DNA of 64,000 bases from a virus. Position 1 is the first letter of the stretch, and each line of letters starts with the position of its first letter. Made by a program: the position numbers and the translations under genes. This document shows positions 14,108 to 24,493 of this stretch, one piece after another. The notes below the pieces were generated by a model. That model did not search any database. It saw only the letters and a list, made by a program, of their open reading frames with translations, and had not been told where the DNA came from. The stretch covers positions 62,001-126,000 of the IMG/VR virus record IMGVR_UViG_3300011113_000123. The stretch is one strand, 5' to 3'.

Positions 14108-14115
14108 TATAAATA
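14108..14115 (+). promoter_or_regulatory. T4-type late promoter TATAAATA
   Basis: Exact late box directly after the terminator, 39 nt before the next gene. It starts a new late transcription unit. Confidence 0.7.
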
Positions 14116-14153: not shown

Positions 14154-14471
14154 ATGAAGTCGTTTAGACAGTACTGCAACGAAGAGTTTTCTTATGTCGA
14201 AGAATCCTCAGAAGGTACAACTTTGAAGGATTACCCGCATCTCCATAAGCATGTTGCGGAAAAACAAAAGAAACAGAAACTTCCAGCCCATTTCATGCAT
14301 AATGTTGGCGATACTCCGGTACATCCTAAGTCTGCAGCTGCTCACAAAAAAGCAGACAGTGCTTTGTCTAGCGGGCATCCTACAGCAAAACGTCGCGCTG
14401 ACGACGTGTATCGCGGCACCTATGATTACGAGGGTTCAGCTGAACGTCGCGTCGCAAACGCAAAGAAGTGA
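14154..14471 (+). CDS. hypothetical protein, 105 aa
   Basis: Lys/His/Ala-rich, starting MKSFRQYCNEEF. Proteins beginning with a MKSFxQ-type head are frequent among head-associated proteins of T4-like phages. The tail carries HPTAKRRADDVYRGTYDYEG. Transcribed from the late promoter at 14108, so a virion or assembly role is inferred. Confidence 0.6.
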   Translation: MKSFRQYCNEEFSYVEESSEGTTLKDYPHLHKHVAEKQKKQKLPAHFMHNVGDTPVHPKSAAAHKKADSALSSGHPTAKRRADDVYRGTYDYEGSAERRVANAKK

Positions 14472-14497: not shown

Positions 14498-15466
14498 ATG
14501 GCTAAAACGATTTCAATCGCTGTGGCAGCACGAATCAATGAAATTTCTGTTTTCAGATATGGTAGTCCTGCTAAGTATAGTTCTAGTGGCGGATTAGCCG
14601 CTAGAAGACAGCTGGAATCTGACATAGAGCCGTTTACTTCGAAAGAAGATATCAGCGAAATCGCAGATCAAGATGGTCGCGCGAAGCTGATGGTCGAGGA
14701 GTTTATCAAATGGGCTAAAAGCAACGGATACTCTGGATCCGTTGCTGATTGTTGGTGGACGGCAAAGCCAGGTGATTTGACTAGAGTAACAGGTAAAACG
14801 GTAGATTCGTCTAAGAATCCGACAGACGTGCTTTTCAAGTTCACTTCTGGTCCAGCTGGATCTGAAGGGTTTCTTGGTTTGTCTGCAAAGTCTACGGGCA
14901 AAGCTAAAGAAATTGGATTTAAGAATCCGGGTGTAGGAACGCTTGAAAATCTACTAGGTATCGAGCTATCACCTATTCTTAATGACTACGTCGCTAGAAT
15001 AGTTAAATTGCATAAGTTTTCTACGACAAGCTCGAAACGAAAAACTGAAATTAGAAGTTCTTCGAAGAAAGTTCAAGACTCTGTGGATGCAATGGGTTCT
15101 TTGGCTATGAAAGATCTAAGAGACGCTCTACTAAAAAAATATAAGGGTATCAAAGATCAGAATTTCATAAAGAACCATATACTAGATGACTGGATGAATT
15201 TTAAAACTGACGATAAGCAAAAGATCTTTCCTCCATACATAAAAGTGACTGGACAAGGAACAAAAGGTAGGTATACAGTATCTATCGTAGATCCTAATTC
15301 AAATTCTAAAATTGATTACATCAAATCTAATAAGATAACTTTTGAAGCAGTTGGTAACGAATCTATTGGTGTTAAAGCTGGAACACATCAGATTATGAAA
15401 ATTCGTTTTAAGTTTGAATCTCAAAAACTGGCTTCCTCTATGAAGTTATCTGGAGAACCTTGGTGA
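14498..15466 (+). CDS. unknown late protein, possible nuclease fold
   Basis: 322 residues, rich in Lys and Ser. NPTDVLFKFTSGP followed by EGFLGLSAKSTGKAKEIGFK has a D...(S/E)xK spacing like the core of PD-(D/E)xK nucleases, but the Glu is replaced by Ser-Ala and no other motif confirms it. The C-terminal third looks beta-rich. It overlaps the ligase-like gene that follows, so the two are probably linked in function. Confidence 0.5.
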   Translation: MAKTISIAVAARINEISVFRYGSPAKYSSSGGLAARRQLESDIEPFTSKEDISEIADQDGRAKLMVEEFIKWAKSNGYSGSVADCWWTAKPGDLTRVTGKTVDSSKNPTDVLFKFTSGPAGSEGFLGLSAKSTGKAKEIGFKNPGVGTLENLLGIELSPILNDYVARIVKLHKFSTTSSKRKTEIRSSSKKVQDSVDAMGSLAMKDLRDALLKKYKGIKDQNFIKNHILDDWMNFKTDDKQKIFPPYIKVTGQGTKGRYTVSIVDPNSNSKIDYIKSNKITFEAVGNESIGVKAGTHQIMKIRFKFESQKLASSMKLSGEPW

Positions 15467-16695
15467 AAAAGCTGTCGACGTTCATCGCTGAGGAAAAGAA
15501 TCTGCATATGGAACACATCGAGGACTTGATCCTCAATGATGGCGTCGCTGGTGCAAAGCAAATCTTCAACTTTCTTATACAGATGCGCAACATGCTTGGC
15601 GGCAGCACCACAAAGAAAGTATCTGGAACTGTGAAGTGGGATGGTGCTCCTGCTATCTTTGCTGGTGTAGATCCTCGCGATGGAAAGTTCTTTGTAGCGA
15701 AGAAAGGCATCTTCAATAAGAACCCAAAGATCTACAAGACACAAGCAGATATCGACGCTGATCTATCTGGCGAATTGGCTGATAAGTTCAGCGTTGCTCT
15801 TCGTGAGTTCAGCAAGCTAGGTATCACGTCTGGTGTATACCAAGGCGATCTCATGTTCACGAAGGGAGATGTTAAAGCAGAAACGATCGACGGGAATAAA
15901 TACTACACGTTCCAACCAAACACAATCGTCTATGCTGTTCCAACTAACTCCGCGCTAGGTAAGACGATCGCTAAAGCAAGCATCGGTGTCGTATGGCACA
16001 CAACCTATACAGGCGACTCGTTCGAGAGCATGAAAGCATCATTTGGTAAGGGTATCGTCGAGAAGCTGAAACAAGTTGGTACGATCTGGATGGACGATGC
16101 TAACTATAAGGACGTCAGCGGAACTGCTACGTTCACAGCAGCCGAAACCGAAAAGTTCAACGCCATACTTTCGCAGGCTGGTAAGATTCTACAGGGATTA
16201 CCAAGCGAAGCTGTAAATGCGTTTTCCAGAGATTCAGAGTTACTGATCCGTGTCAAAACGTACAACAACTCTAAGGTACGAGCTGGCGAAAAGATTATGA
16301 ATACGACTTCACATGTTGCTGGCTTTATCCACTATATGAACGACTATTATCAAAAAGAAGAAGATAAGAAGAAAACGCCTGCTGGTAAGAACGCAGTGAA
16401 AGCTAAGAAAGCTCAGTCGTTTGGACCTATCGTACGAACACCACTGCTTCAGCTGAAATCCATATTTGATTTTATGAACCTGATTGTTGACGCCAAGATG
16501 ATGATTATAGCAAAGATGAATTCAGCAGCGAGTGTCGATACGTTCCTACGTACACGTCAGGGATTGAAGATCACTTCGCCTGAAGGATATGTTGCAGTAG
16601 ATCATTTGACTGGTGGAGCAGTAAAGCTAGTAGATCGTCTGGGATTCAGCCAAGCAAACTTTAGTCCAGACATTATCAAGGGATGGGAGAAATAA
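15463..16695 (+). CDS. ligase-like nucleotidyltransferase (KxDG)
   Basis: 410 residues with GTVKWDGAPAIFAGVDP near residues 54-70, in which KWDG matches motif I (KxDG) of ATP-dependent DNA/RNA ligases and caps. FFVAKKGIFNKNPK and VYQGDLMFTKGD could be the next strands and motif III. Similar proteins of unknown function (I recall DUF6267) occur in T4-like phages. The start is GTG overlapping the previous stop. Ligase activity is unproved. Confidence 0.65.
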   Translation: MKKLSTFIAEEKNLHMEHIEDLILNDGVAGAKQIFNFLIQMRNMLGGSTTKKVSGTVKWDGAPAIFAGVDPRDGKFFVAKKGIFNKNPKIYKTQADIDADLSGELADKFSVALREFSKLGITSGVYQGDLMFTKGDVKAETIDGNKYYTFQPNTIVYAVPTNSALGKTIAKASIGVVWHTTYTGDSFESMKASFGKGIVEKLKQVGTIWMDDANYKDVSGTATFTAAETEKFNAILSQAGKILQGLPSEAVNAFSRDSELLIRVKTYNNSKVRAGEKIMNTTSHVAGFIHYMNDYYQKEEDKKKTPAGKNAVKAKKAQSFGPIVRTPLLQLKSIFDFMNLIVDAKMMIIAKMNSAASVDTFLRTRQGLKITSPEGYVAVDHLTGGAVKLVDRLGFSQANFSPDIIKGWEK

Positions 16696-16801: not shown

Positions 16802-16947
16802 TATACTGACCCCTCGTAACACTACTCATTATAATGGTTATATCTGAAGTTGTCAAGACGTTTTTATAAATAAAGGGAGCAGAAGGCTACGGCAATCCTG
16901 CTCCCAACTCATATGCGGTCAGGCCACGGCAATCCCGCGAGGATAAA
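16802..16947 (+). promoter_or_regulatory. late promoter and repeated hairpin leader
   Basis: An exact TATAAATA (16865-16872) heads the leader of the 1337-residue gene. The leader then has two hairpins whose loops hold the same 16-base motif, GGCYACGGCAATCCYG (16885-16900 and 16922-16937). The first is closed by GGGAGCAG/CTGCTCCC, the second by GCGG/CCGC. The second hairpin ends at the ribosome-binding site CGAGGATAA. No other gene fits here. Confidence 0.55.
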
Positions 16948-19900
16948 ATGAAGAGCGTTGTATTCACATTCGGGCGTATGAATCCGCCTACGACAGGGCA
17001 CCAGCTACTGGTGAACAAACTGATCGCTCTCGCTCAAACGAGCAAGTCGACTCCTCGCGTTTACTTGTCACATTCAGTCGGCAAGAAAGATCCCCTTCCA
17101 TACGATAAGAAGATCGCGTTCGCTCGTGCAGCGTTTGGTGCTATCGTACGCAAATCAAACTCAAAGAACGTTATTCAGATTCTCAAGGATCTTGAAGAAG
17201 AAGGTTTCACTCACGTCACGATGGTCGTTGGGTCTGATCGCGTTCCTGACTTCACTAGACTACTCAACACATACAACGGCAAGGAATACACGTTCGAAAA
17301 GATTGACGTCAAGTCAGCTGGCGAGCGTGATCCAGACGCAGACGATGTGACAGGTATGTCAGCCAGCAAGATGCGCGCTCTAGCTAAAGACGAAAAGGTC
17401 GCAGAGTTTCTTCGCGGCGCTCCCAACACCCTCAAAGCAGCACAAGCCAAAAGCATGTATACGGCTGTGCGTAAGGCTCTACTAGGAGAAAATGTTATGG
17501 AATATGGCCATGACGAAAAGTTCCTCGAATTCATTTTCGAACAGGATACAAAGGAAGACGACGATCTGACGGATATGCCGTCGGATGGTGAGATCTCAAA
17601 GCACTTCGATTCACTGCATCCAGACGATCTTGATCTCGACGACGCTGATGCTATGATGCTCGATGTTATTCTCGGTAACGAAGAAGAAGAGGAAGAAATC
17701 AAGGAAGCCAAAGTTCTTTCGATTCAGCAGCGTCAGAAGCTATCTCAGCGCATGAAGGCTATGTCTAAGCGTCTAGCTCGTCTTCGTCAGATCAAAGCAA
17801 AGCAGATGCCAGCTCAGCAGCGCCTTCGCATGCGCGCGCGAAAAGCTGCTATTATGCTTCTTCGTAAGCGCGCAACAGGCAAGAAAGATCTAGATTACGC
17901 TTCTCTATCGAAGTCACAGCGCGTAGCAGTAGACACTGCTCTTGTTCAGCGTTTTGGTAATAGTCTCAACAGAATCGTAGATCGTCTATCAACACGTCTG
18001 CTCCCTCGCGTACGCAAGCACGCGCAGGAGTACGTTAAGAAAGCTCGTGAAGAAGTCAAGGAACAAACACTCGATCCAAAGACAAAGAAGCACGTTTCGG
18101 ATCAGAAGCAAGATAATCCTCTGAATCTTGATGCGCTCAAGCTGAACATCTTGAATACTGATCCACAGAAAAATGATCGTGCGGCACCAGATCCAAAGCA
18201 AGCTCATCTGCATAAGAATAAGAAGGCTACACACTTCTTTAAGACATTCGATGAAGGTCGTAAGAGTTCTGCTGATAAGGACGCTCGCGATGCTGGTGAT
18301 ACCAACATCATCTATCAGATGCGTAAGACTATTAATTCGCGCGGCGAGCATGAAACAGTGTTTGCTGATGGGCACAAAGCAAACGTTTCAATCGCAGACG
18401 CCAAGAAACTTCTAGCTAAGTTTGAAGCTATTCGTATGCCTGCTGATAAGCAAGAGTTCACTATCCAGGCTGGTAAGTCTCTTTCTTCATTCAAAAACGT
18501 GCTTGCTCATGGCGTGAAGCAAGAAAAGAAGAAGATTTCGCTTGGCGGTAAGAGCTTCAAAGAGTTTTATCTTGGTGTGGGTCGCTCGCGCACTGTTTCT
18601 GCATATGATAACGATGAACCACCAGGAACTCGTCGCGTTGCTGAAGCTAAGAGCGTTGGTGGCGTAGAGCCAGATGCGAACGATGATCCTAATGTTTCGC
18701 GTAAGCCTAATCCAAAGCTAGACCTGTTGCTTCGCCTTGGTCTAGCAGATACAGACGAGCTGCAGAAGTATCGTCGTGCGCTGCGTTCTAGCAAAAAGCA
18801 AGCTCTTGGTTCGCCTGAGATGCGTAAGAAACTAGCTGATCTGTTGGATAAGCTGATTGATATCGTTACAGGCGATCCATCAACTTATTCGCGCGTCAGA
18901 TACAAGGTACAGGCTCAGGAAGCTATCTCGCTTGTTAATAAGGCTGAAAAGTCTGGTGTAGACGTAACAGTACTAGCTGAAGTGTTCATGCGCGAGATCG
19001 CAGAAACAAGTGATAACAACAGAGCTTTCAATCGCGTGAACTCATTCATTGCTGGCGGGAAAGCTGCTGAATTAGACAGCGATCTGTCAGAAAAGGCAGA
19101 TTTGCCTCACAAGTATCGTGCTGGTCTATCAGACAAAACCGCTGCTGCAAGAAAATCGCATTGGGATAAGATGAACAAGCTGTCTGATCGCGATCCTCGC
19201 GCGTACGAGCCAGCACCTGGAGATGCGACTGCAAAAACAAAACCATCGAAGCACACGCTAAAGTACAAGAGAATGTACGGAGAAGAAGCTATGGACGAAA
19301 GTTCTGAAACAGGATTAGCTGCAAAAGCTAAGAAGTCTGGTGTTTCGCTCGGAACGCTGAAGAAAGTGTATCGTCGTGGCGTCGCAGCATGGAACTCTGG
19401 TCATCGTCCAGGCACAACTCCGCAGCAGTGGGGAATGGCTCGCGTCAACTCTTACATCACAAAAGGTAAGGGAACCTATCATGGCGCAGATAAGGATCTG
19501 CGTGAAGACGAGCTGAATGAAAAGGGTCCAGGTCTGTGGGCTAACATTCATGCAAAGCGTCAAAGAATCAAAGCTGGCTCTGGTGAGCGTATGCGTAAAC
19601 CAGGATCCAAGGGAGCACCTACAGCAGATCAGATTAGAGCAGCTAAGAGCGAAGAAACACAAAACGAAGGTCAAGCTAACTGGGCTAAAGCTCGTAAAGA
19701 AAACGAACGCTCTAGCGTTGCGTATCTGAATCGCGCAAAGAAGTCATACGTTGATCGTAGTGTGACTCCATATAAAGCTGACGACGCTAAGATTGCTGCT
19801 GATTCCATGAAGGATTTCGTAGCCAGAGGCGGTAAGATTCAGCAGCTTCCGCCTGGTAAAAAGACGATCAAGTCGCTCGTTAAACCTAAGAAGTATATGA

Positions 19901-20961
19901 CGCCTAATCAGGCTTCAAAGATTACAGAACAGAACATGACGACACATGATGCAGTTCCTCTCTCGAAGAGAGTGAAGCGCGTTAAGAGCTTCCATGCTTT
20001 CCATCCTCCAGTGAAGGAAACGGTGCAGCGTGATTCTGATATTAGAATGGTTAAAGTTCGTATGCCCGATGGAACTACCAAGTTCCGTAAAGAACGTGCG
20101 CCAGCTAAAGTTCAGCAGGAAATGTATACAGGTTCGGAGCCAACTACAACTAATCCAGCTGATCCAGCAAGTCGTTTCGTAGGAACTAATGCTATTCGTC
20201 AGACGTATGCTAATGTAACTCCTGGCCAGGGATCAGTTGCAGGTGAAATTGCAGTAGCGAAGTATGCGCCCGAAAAGGTCAACTACACATCGTCAATGGC
20301 TAAGAAGACGCATACAGAAGTGGATCAGTCTAAGGATAACCTGAGCAAGAAACACTTCAATGACATTCGCAAGGCTCTTGGTGGTATTCGTGAATCGCAT
20401 GATCTTAACGAAGCGTTTGCTGCTGGATTTGAACTAGCTCCATTCGCGCGCGATTATGGTATGACAGTTCAGTCAGCGTTTGAGCATCATCCAGACGTAG
20501 AACGTATGATGGACGAGTCCAATACCAAAACGACGAAAGCGATTGTTTATAAGGACAATAAGCCATTCGCTATATATCCAGATATGAAATCTGCTCAGAA
20601 AGAATACTATGGTAAGGATGGTTATTCTATCGGCACTGTATCTTTGAGTAAGTCTAAGGCTTTAAAGAAATTAAATCCAGGTCTCAAGATTGTTGAAGAC
20701 TCAATGGATGAAGCTACATATCAAGGGCGCAAAGTTCCACTTAACAAACCTATGAAGGGTGATGTTAAGAAGTCAAAAGTTTATGTTGATCCAGACGGCG
20801 ACGGCAAAGCTAAAAAGATCAACTTTGGTGATAAGAATCTAAGTATCAAGAAAGATCAACCTGCTCGTAAGAGATCATACTGTGCTCGCTCTAGCGGTCA
20901 GGGTAATTTAACTAAGAAAGATAGTGCCAACTATTGGTCACGTAGAGCATGGAATTGCTAA
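16948..20961 (+). CDS. giant mosaic protein with NMN-adenylyltransferase-like head
   Basis: 1337 residues. Residues 1-170 are a nucleotidylyl-transferase domain: GRMNPPTTGH (9-18, the HxGH-type site) and SASKMRA (138-144, the ISSTxxR-type site). The rest is a chain of Lys/Ala-rich modules: a Lys/Arg-rich coiled stretch (235-385), two related helical modules (LVNKAEKSGVDVTVL near 662 and GLAAKAKKSGVSLGT near 789), a DKTAAARKSHWDKMNKLSD module near 727, and a terminal KKINFGDKNLSIKKDQPARK module. Such modules recur in head-associated phage proteins. A late virion or internal head protein is inferred, perhaps processed. Confidence 0.75.
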   Translation: MKSVVFTFGRMNPPTTGHQLLVNKLIALAQTSKSTPRVYLSHSVGKKDPLPYDKKIAFARAAFGAIVRKSNSKNVIQILKDLEEEGFTHVTMVVGSDRVPDFTRLLNTYNGKEYTFEKIDVKSAGERDPDADDVTGMSASKMRALAKDEKVAEFLRGAPNTLKAAQAKSMYTAVRKALLGENVMEYGHDEKFLEFIFEQDTKEDDDLTDMPSDGEISKHFDSLHPDDLDLDDADAMMLDVILGNEEEEEEIKEAKVLSIQQRQKLSQRMKAMSKRLARLRQIKAKQMPAQQRLRMRARKAAIMLLRKRATGKKDLDYASLSKSQRVAVDTALVQRFGNSLNRIVDRLSTRLLPRVRKHAQEYVKKAREEVKEQTLDPKTKKHVSDQKQDNPLNLDALKLNILNTDPQKNDRAAPDPKQAHLHKNKKATHFFKTFDEGRKSSADKDARDAGDTNIIYQMRKTINSRGEHETVFADGHKANVSIADAKKLLAKFEAIRMPADKQEFTIQAGKSLSSFKNVLAHGVKQEKKKISLGGKSFKEFYLGVGRSRTVSAYDNDEPPGTRRVAEAKSVGGVEPDANDDPNVSRKPNPKLDLLLRLGLADTDELQKYRRALRSSKKQALGSPEMRKKLADLLDKLIDIVTGDPSTYSRVRYKVQAQEAISLVNKAEKSGVDVTVLAEVFMREIAETSDNNRAFNRVNSFIAGGKAAELDSDLSEKADLPHKYRAGLSDKTAAARKSHWDKMNKLSDRDPRAYEPAPGDATAKTKPSKHTLKYKRMYGEEAMDESSETGLAAKAKKSGVSLGTLKKVYRRGVAAWNSGHRPGTTPQQWGMARVNSYITKGKGTYHGADKDLREDELNEKGPGLWANIHAKRQRIKAGSGERMRKPGSKGAPTADQIRAAKSEETQNEGQANWAKARKENERSSVAYLNRAKKSYVDRSVTPYKADDAKIAADSMKDFVARGGKIQQLPPGKKTIKSLVKPKKYMTPNQASKITEQNMTTHDAVPLSKRVKRVKSFHAFHPPVKETVQRDSDIRMVKVRMPDGTTKFRKERAPAKVQQEMYTGSEPTTTNPADPASRFVGTNAIRQTYANVTPGQGSVAGEIAVAKYAPEKVNYTSSMAKKTHTEVDQSKDNLSKKHFNDIRKALGGIRESHDLNEAFAAGFELAPFARDYGMTVQSAFEHHPDVERMMDESNTKTTKAIVYKDNKPFAIYPDMKSAQKEYYGKDGYSIGTVSLSKSKALKKLNPGLKIVEDSMDEATYQGRKVPLNKPMKGDVKKSKVYVDPDGDGKAKKINFGDKNLSIKKDQPARKRSYCARSSGQGNLTKKDSANYWSRRAWNC

Positions 20962-21241: not shown

Positions 21242-21682
21242 ATGGATCCACTCGTAGAGTCGCTCAAGAAAGTTCTAGCGAGTAGCTTTTCTTTCTATCT
21301 GAAGGCGCACAACTATCACTGGAACGTAGAAGGTCATAGCTTCTCGGAGTATCACGCCTTCTTGGGTGATCTCTACGCAGAAGTCTGGGGTGCGGTTGAT
21401 CTCATCGCAGAACACATCCGCACTCTAGACGCATACGTTCCTGGTTCACTTACACGTTTCCAGCAGCTGACTTCAATCGAAGATGAGCTTGCAGTTCCAA
21501 CTAGCCGCATGATGATGGCTAAGTTGTTTGCTGACAATCAGCGCATTCTTAACGATCTGCAAGCAGCTCATGCTGTTGCTGAGTCTGCTGGTAAGCGTGG
21601 TATTGTAAACTTCCTTGAAGATCGCATCGACATTCATGAAAAGCATGCTTGGATGCTTCGTTCATTTACTAAAGGTGAATAA
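21242..21682 (+). CDS. Dps-like ferritin
   Basis: 146-residue four-helix protein of the Dps family, which stores iron and protects DNA from oxidation. The intersubunit ferroxidase helix is visible: KAHNYHWNVEGHSFSEYH (H26 and H38) and DLYAEVWGAVDLIAEHI with its acidic ligands. C-terminal GKRGIVNFLEDRIDIHEKH is typical. There is no lysine-rich DNA-binding N-tail. It could protect packaged or nucleoid DNA, and its stop shares a base with the next start. Confidence 0.9.
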   Translation: MDPLVESLKKVLASSFSFYLKAHNYHWNVEGHSFSEYHAFLGDLYAEVWGAVDLIAEHIRTLDAYVPGSLTRFQQLTSIEDELAVPTSRMMMAKLFADNQRILNDLQAAHAVAESAGKRGIVNFLEDRIDIHEKHAWMLRSFTKGE

Positions 21683-23260: not shown

Positions 23261-24493
23261 ATGTCAGTAGATCCAAAGAAGTTTGGTATCACGCCATCTC
23301 TCGTAGAAACAGTGAAGGAAGCTCTGAAGGGAAGTCAGCACAAGATTGACGTTGCTGAACCTAAGGGTAAGATCACTGGAGCAGACTTCAAGAAGTTGCG
23401 CGGTGAAACATCAGATCCAGTTGTTCAGAGTAACCTGGATAAGGTCAATGCAGTTGCAAGCGATCTTAAGAAGATGGCCTCTGAGCCAATTAAGCCAATG
23501 GGCTCTAAGACATCAACAACGAGTCTTCCTAAGGCTACGTTCAATCTGAAGCCACCTATGGGTGAAGCAGCGAAGCCAGACTTCCTCGATCTCGATAAGG
23601 ACGACAATAAGAAAGAGCCAATGAAGCATGCTGCAAAGCAGACTAAGGAAGAAGTCGAGCAGGTCGACGAGCTTTCCAAATCAACTCTTGGCTCTTATGT
23701 TAAGAAGGCTTCAGGTTCTGCTGCAACACATACTGGCGCAGCAGCTGCTTATGGTAGCTCTAGCAAGAGTCCAGATCCAAAGAAGATGGCGCAGCATCAA
23801 GCTGTAGCAACAAAAAGGTCAACAGGTATCGCGAAAGCAGTTGGTAAGCTCACTAAGGAAGAAGTTGAGCAAGTCGATGAACTTTCCAAGTCAACTCTTG
23901 GCTCTTATATCAAAAAAGCTAGTGGAAGAGTTGCAGATAAATCACGTCATGCGGGTGATATTGAAAACAGACGCGACGTTTCACCAGCAGCTAAAGAAGT
24001 TTTGGCAAAACAGAATAGAAAAGTTGATAATTCTTTAAAAGGAATTTCAAGAGCAACAGATCGTCTTGCAAAAGAAGAAGTCGAAATGACTGAAGCTGAA
24101 TCACAGGCTGCAAAGCAGATCGCTGCTAGAAAAGAAGCGATGAAGACGCACATTCAAAAAAAGATCGCTAATAAGCAGATGTCCGCGATGCAGGCTAAGG
24201 CTAATCAGCGTCTGAAGAGCATCAATGCTTCTAACGATAAGTGCAGCTGCGGCGACACGAATGAGTCAAAGATGAAGTGCGAGATGCACGGTGGTAAGGA
24301 TAAAGAAGCTAAGATGGGTCGCGAGAAAATCGAAGTGAATCCACCACTACGCGAAGCAGAAGATCTACCAAAGAAGGTAGTCACTAAGGGTCACGAAATC
24401 GCCAAGTCTCTAATCAAGAGCAAGGCAAAAGTTCGCGAGCCATATGCAGTTGGAATGGCTCAAGCTAAGAAGTCTGCTGGCATCAAGGACTAA
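23261..24493 (+). CDS. repeat-containing head-region protein, 410 aa
   Basis: Lys/Ala/Glu-rich and mostly helical. A 25-residue motif, EEVEQVDELSKSTLGSYVKK followed by ASG, occurs twice exactly 70 codons apart (DNA 23642-23715 and 23852-23925, nearly identical), and a third degenerate KEEVEMTEAESQAAK follows. A CxCG...C cluster (about residues 325-340) may bind metal. DELSKxTLGSYVKKA modules recur in phage head-associated proteins. Late, structural or scaffold role inferred. Confidence 0.6.
   Translation: MSVDPKKFGITPSLVETVKEALKGSQHKIDVAEPKGKITGADFKKLRGETSDPVVQSNLDKVNAVASDLKKMASEPIKPMGSKTSTTSLPKATFNLKPPMGEAAKPDFLDLDKDDNKKEPMKHAAKQTKEEVEQVDELSKSTLGSYVKKASGSAATHTGAAAAYGSSSKSPDPKKMAQHQAVATKRSTGIAKAVGKLTKEEVEQVDELSKSTLGSYIKKASGRVADKSRHAGDIENRRDVSPAAKEVLAKQNRKVDNSLKGISRATDRLAKEEVEMTEAESQAAKQIAARKEAMKTHIQKKIANKQMSAMQAKANQRLKSINASNDKCSCGDTNESKMKCEMHGGKDKEAKMGREKIEVNPPLREAEDLPKKVVTKGHEIAKSLIKSKAKVREPYAVGMAQAKKSAGIKD

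Follow-up and report, generated by a model that had tools for sequence, protein, structure and literature searches.

A nucleotidylyltransferase fused to internal-head-type modules, a probable polyprotein of head cargo in a marine T4-like phage

The window analysed here, a stretch of 64 kb contained in a virus record of 157,580 bases, carries at positions 16948-20961 (+ strand) an open reading frame, P0001, which begins with ATG and runs for 1337 residues without an internal stop. Its length is not an assembly artefact, because a 1370-residue relative, 89% identical to P0001 in its best segment, is present on an independent contig (L007); the claim of a single 1337-residue frame made in an earlier note is thus borne out. 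A single-sequence search of IMG/VR with P0001 returned one relative only, and a profile was therefore needed to find others.

All of the features of P0001 that follow lie on the + strand, and in the sequences quoted a slash follows the Glu of the motif. The N-terminal part (residues 1-183; 16948..17496) is a predicted nucleotidylyltransferase domain of the HIGH superfamily, assigned from a PHROG match, motifs and an AlphaFold fold. It leads into an acidic linker (residues 184-253; 17497..17706; net -24) which ends IKE/A and which contains, directly after the enzyme domain, an internal capsid-targeting-like motif, FLEFIFE (residues 192-198; 17521..17541). Beyond the linker are a basic module (residues 254-372; 17707..18063; net +26), a module in common with Melnitz gene 20 (residues 446-530; 18283..18537), a diverged copy of the DUF5824 core which ends LSE/K (residues 656-715; 18913..19092), DUF5824 itself, the core of which begins just past MDE/S at 784 (residues 720-852; 19105..19503), a GLWANIHAKR module following LNE/K (residues 859-905; 19522..19662), and a C-terminal module following MDE/A (residues 1256-1337; 20713..20958). 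These later modules are mostly basic. The DUF5824 match (PF19141) scores 74.4 bits against a curated cut-off of 25 (E=1e-20), and there are PHROG matches at residues 861-900 (phrog_16028) and 1251-1335 (phrog_7595), while searches of PDB sequences with P0001, its modules, A4 and A5 gave no credible match. Two of the modules had been described as related to each other, and so they are: residues 660-715 and 788-853 share 35% identity over 66 aa (E=8e-10). A weak match to the SutA RNA-polymerase-binding motif at residues 954-971 (19807-19860; 17.9 bits, cut-off 29.3) would be of interest in an injected peptide.

Residues 1-183 match the PHROG cytidyltransferase (E=2e-74), and the enzyme family, found in 551 phage records mostly from T4-like cyanophages, counts among the core families of marine T4-like phages. 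Both motifs picked out in the earlier note, GRMNPPTTGH and SASKMRA, are present in P0001. The first is an (H/T)xGH motif with the upstream Gly and Pro, and the second, as GMSASKMRA, is of the ISSTxxR type; in an alignment of 42 relatives G9, R10, N12, P13, T15, G17, H18, S138, K141 and R143 are invariant. The AlphaFold model of the domain (pLDDT 90.8) displays the Rossmann-type alpha/beta fold of the superfamily, and its PDB fold matches are NadD (NaMN adenylyltransferase) and CoaD (phosphopantetheine adenylyltransferase), which fit the model equally well (both E about 1e-5, best 8e-6). On motifs and modelled fold, HIGH-superfamily nucleotidylyltransferase is a safe prediction of the enzyme class but not of the substrate, which is most plausibly a nicotinamide- or pantetheine-type nucleotide. 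The description of this domain as an active-looking nucleotidylyltransferase therefore stands on its conserved motifs and fold, whereas the specificity for NMN that came with it is unproven, because the fold search does not separate NadD from CoaD. The phage S-CBWM1, cited for a virion NMNAT, contains no match to the enzyme profile, and its NMNAT must therefore belong elsewhere.

Elsewhere among phages, the modules of the tail are found as separate genes or in other proteins. The basic module is encoded on its own by Melnitz gene 17 and C48C1 gene 88, both of which have a targeting-like N-terminus, and module 446-530 lies within a longer protein, Melnitz gene 20, which starts MTRYNKTMSE/A. DUF5824 has its own gene in C48C1 (gene 90) and in the IMG/VR loci L055, L077, L045 and L098, as do the LWANIHAKR module in L056 (MLTFKKYLEE/G) and in T7-like phages, and the C-terminal module in L025 (MKSYQQWLNE/A), L053 (MLRFKEWLAE/A) and HTVC008M (gp131). 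The idea that the modules were borrowed from head-associated proteins is supported, since as single genes they have either T4-type targeting-like starts or T7-like scaffold or capsid neighbours. The gene order helicase - DUF6267 - (small basic gene) - enzyme is repeated in the isolates HTVC008M, Melnitz and C48C1. In HTVC008M, a P-loop kinase-like gene (GGPGSGKT; L002:9291-9953) is situated between DUF6267 and the enzyme.

The T4 late-promoter consensus, TATAAATA, is found at 16865..16872 (+), 83 nt ahead of the P0001 start codon. The 157.6-kb genome has 12 copies, every one on the + strand, where 2-3 per strand are expected, and 11 of these are no more than 100 nt from an ORF start, including those of tail sheath gp18 and gp22. 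The element is kept 47-92 nt upstream in all eight scannable members of the P0001 clade. A small gene further upstream (14154..14471, +) has its own TATAAATA at 14108 and a targeting-like start, MKSFRQYCNE/E. Closer to P0001 is a DUF6267 partner gene (15460..16695, +) whose N-terminus, MVKKLSTFIAE/E, is likewise T4-type targeting-like. DUF6267 is present in 80 of 87 enzyme-carrying loci and in some phages (L070, S-PM2) forms one protein with the enzyme, with PHROG 455 spanning both. Its invariant KWDGAPAI, QGD, EGYVA and KLVDR motifs resemble by eye those of ATP-dependent RNA ligases. Searching the PDB by fold produced nothing significant, the best E from profile comparison with T4 RnlA, RnlB and gp30 was 0.11, and comparison with a viral fold library found an RNA ligase at E=0.04 only, so we keep the RNA-ligase likeness as a lead. 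The gene ahead of DUF6267 (14498-15466) is PD-(D/E)XK nuclease-like by eye, without a family match, as are its counterparts HTVC008M gp126 (TPKTDFTIGNNKISLKSG) and Melnitz 15. Downstream of P0001 the cluster contains a Dps/ferritin-like gene (21242-21682; Pfam Ferritin, E=5e-25).

The joints between modules share a single feature. The tripeptide phi-x-E, which is the cleavage motif of the T4 head protease (PMC5694885, PMC9026906), was found just upstream of each of the four modules on which the pattern was tested, in 42/45 (the basic module 254-372), 43/48, 10/12 and 27/28 non-redundant contexts (83-96%), against a background of 23-27% in windows drawn from those same proteins. The flanks of the joints otherwise differ and phi-x-E alone recurs. 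Within P0001 itself there are 26 phi-x-E tripeptides compared to 18.5 in shuffled sequence, a modest excess (P=0.03), and 12 of a restricted form compared to 5.5 (P=0.0035); the sequences are related rather than independent, and the patterns and module starts were set after examples had been seen, so these P values serve as guides. Thirteen phi-x-E are followed by A, G, S, K or Q and are predicted to suit gp21. The same genome encodes gp21 together with gp22, gp23 and a gp55-like sigma, and its gp23 has GLLGE/AAPTN where Melnitz has FLSE/AAPTN and T4 has FLTE/A.

A second T4-like feature is displayed at the N-termini of the relatives. In the T4 capsid-targeting sequence, MKTYQEFIAE/A, mutations assign residues 4 and 7 to targeting and residues 8 and 10 to processing (PMC9026906). 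The enzyme has been detected in the virion proteomes of S-CREM2, S-SM1, S-SCSM1 and S-SZBM1 (PMC10665884, PMC3037559, PMC9602691, PMC9146016), and all four of these examined enzymes have a targeting-like start (MKNFSSFLTE/A, MKKFSAFLNE/A, MKSFLQFLKE/A and MRFRQFIIE/A, respectively). The S-CREM2 sequence has F4, F7, L8 and E10, and several marine sequences keep the exact T4 register. Targeting-like starts occur also in C48C1 (MITFKKYLEE/K) and Melnitz (MQGFKTFLSE/A). The flanking cassette genes 89, 90, 92 and 93 of S-SCSM1 are all annotated as virion proteins, with the caveat from the authors that virion detection may reflect carry-over (PMC9602691). A strict targeting pattern is matched by 53 of 75 distinct contexts for DUF6267 and 33 of 83 for the enzyme, compared to 2.7% of random windows, and many of the remaining N-termini are one residue shorter than the pattern. 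A phi-x-E is present within 18 residues in 64 of 83 enzymes versus 35% of random windows. Against 0.9 expected, the Melnitz-3 genome gives six strict hits among 217 proteins, and three of these fall in cassette genes that follow one another. As a control, 53 of 804 ORFs from the same loci are targeting-like, a figure which overstates the background because many are neighbours resembling the same class. P0001 (which starts MKSVVFTFGR) and the other eight members of its clade do not have an N-terminal targeting sequence. The sole strict match within P0001 is FLEFIFE, and motifs are seen at the same place after the enzyme domain in L007 (FLEFIFE), L020 (FIEFVIE) and L021 (FSKFITE). Since these look-alikes directly follow the enzyme domain, the targeting signal may have moved inside the protein upon gene fusion.

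With modules that relatives appear to pack singly and likely protease sites at its joints, P0001 is probably packed, cut and injected, and we consider it likely to be a polyprotein form of the T4 internal head proteins. Expressed late in this T4-like (Kyanoviridae-like) marine phage, it would co-assemble into the prohead core and be cut there by the gp21-type protease after the Glu of phi-x-E at the module joints. The enzyme and peptides would remain in the DNA-filled head and be ejected along with the DNA, with the enzyme acting from the first minutes of infection. Virion presence is known from the relatives only and would extend to P0001 by analogy. The earlier note had guessed at either an enzyme that travels in the virion or a precursor for the head protease; given the virion proteomes of relatives and the placement of phi-x-E, both probably apply, jointly, save that P0001 does not have the N-terminal targeting sequence of those relatives.

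We regard it as unlikely that P0001 is instead packaged uncut, as a long and flexible protein of head-interior or scaffold-like type, with modules that bind DNA or the capsid and with phi-x-E as an inherited linker. The basic character of the modules would suit such a protein. Moreover, the LWANIHAKR module has its own Met start and no phi-x-E in three Autographiviridae (T7-like) records, in two of which the gene adjoins scaffold or capsid genes, and the C-terminal module of the small phage HTVC202P likewise begins with its own Met and has no phi-x-E. The T7-like module can therefore work without cutting; to our knowledge, T7-like phages have no gp21-type protease. What speaks for cutting in P0001 is that the very motif recognised by the T4 head protease is kept at the joints despite their unlike flanks; the absence of phi-x-E before the stand-alone LWANIHAKR module of T7-like phages also favours the polyprotein reading.

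An auxiliary metabolic enzyme that works in the cytosol, is made late to supply NAD or CoA and has an incidental tail would be consistent with the conserved active-site residues and with the NAD supply proposed by cyanophage authors (PMC9602691). It is nevertheless improbable given that purified virions of relatives contain their enzymes, which have targeting-like sequences, that a late promoter lies upstream, and that a search of the genome for a complete NAD-salvage set found neither an NAPRTase nor a Nudix partner. Although the first His of HxGH is Thr (T15) in 42/42 aligned members and no substrate-specific residues could be assigned, a catalytically dead domain, serving as folded cargo or plugging the DNA end or the portal, is very unlikely because H18, K141, R143 and the other motif residues are invariant and T/HxGH variants exist in the HIGH superfamily.

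The polyprotein reading places P0001 beside T4 IPI, IPII, IPIII and Alt, which are made late, are directed to the prohead core by a short targeting sequence, are cut by gp21 after Glu and are ejected together with the DNA (PMC9026906, PMC5694885). In P0001, by contrast, an enzyme is chained to many modules, several of whose joints have cut-like sites, and the targeting-like motif lies inside the protein instead of at the N-terminus. The NMNAT/cytidyltransferase virion protein of marine T4-like cyanophages (T4-GC190, PHROG 3041/395) belongs to the same enzyme family as P0001, but these proteins are 286-409 aa long with a targeting-like start, whereas the 1337-residue P0001 has no such start and has taken up modules encoded separately elsewhere. 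As is proposed for P0001, the T4 scaffold-core proteins gp22, gp67 and gp68 are cut by gp21 at several sites inside the prohead (PMC5694885); most of their fragments exit the head, but the P0001 cargo would be expected to stay, and no sequence relation of P0001 to them was found. We also considered membership of the polyvalent proteins of phages and conjugative elements, which the account of Iyer et al. 2017 cited in PMC9503650 presents as large, multidomain and thought to be injected with DNA. As presented there, such proteins combine several enzymatic or effector domains; in P0001 one enzyme domain is recognised and the remainder is internal-head-peptide-like with protease-type sites between, and the assignment was not adopted.

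The wider reading, to which we give an even chance, is of a modular cargo system in marine T4-like phages, in which interchangeable targeting-tagged enzymes and basic peptides (the nucleotidylyltransferase, DUF6267, DUF5824, LWANIHAKR and others) would be delivered to the host either singly or, in this clade, as one protease-cut polyprotein and so in a fixed ratio. The virion presence of the enzyme family is already known; the targeting sequences, modular cassette and joint pattern were absent from the literature searched, which contained nothing on targeting sequences in cyanophages nor on DUF5824 or DUF6267. Cyanophage virion proteomes repeatedly show these enzymes with their route unaccounted for, and a T4-type targeting sequence would provide that route. 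If correct, injected proteins would be predictable from sequence alone in very common ocean viruses, and a viral polyprotein strategy would be at work on cargo, matured by the capsid protease. The conserved joints provide testable boundaries for many 'hypothetical' phage proteins.

Further proteins show related features. The product of 23261-24493 in the window contains two copies of a phi-x-E-delimited repeat, EEVEQVDE/LSKSTLGSYVKKASG, and probably belongs to the same internal-head class. The ATP-grasp (RimK-like) protein of Melnitz (L015:82-1131) has a targeting-like start, MTQKFSQFITE/E, and other enzymes may therefore be head cargo too. S-CREM2 gp156 (L100:7613-8326), which is virion-detected and starts MKKLISE/L, appears by eye to be a minimal Pol-beta-type nucleotidyltransferase.
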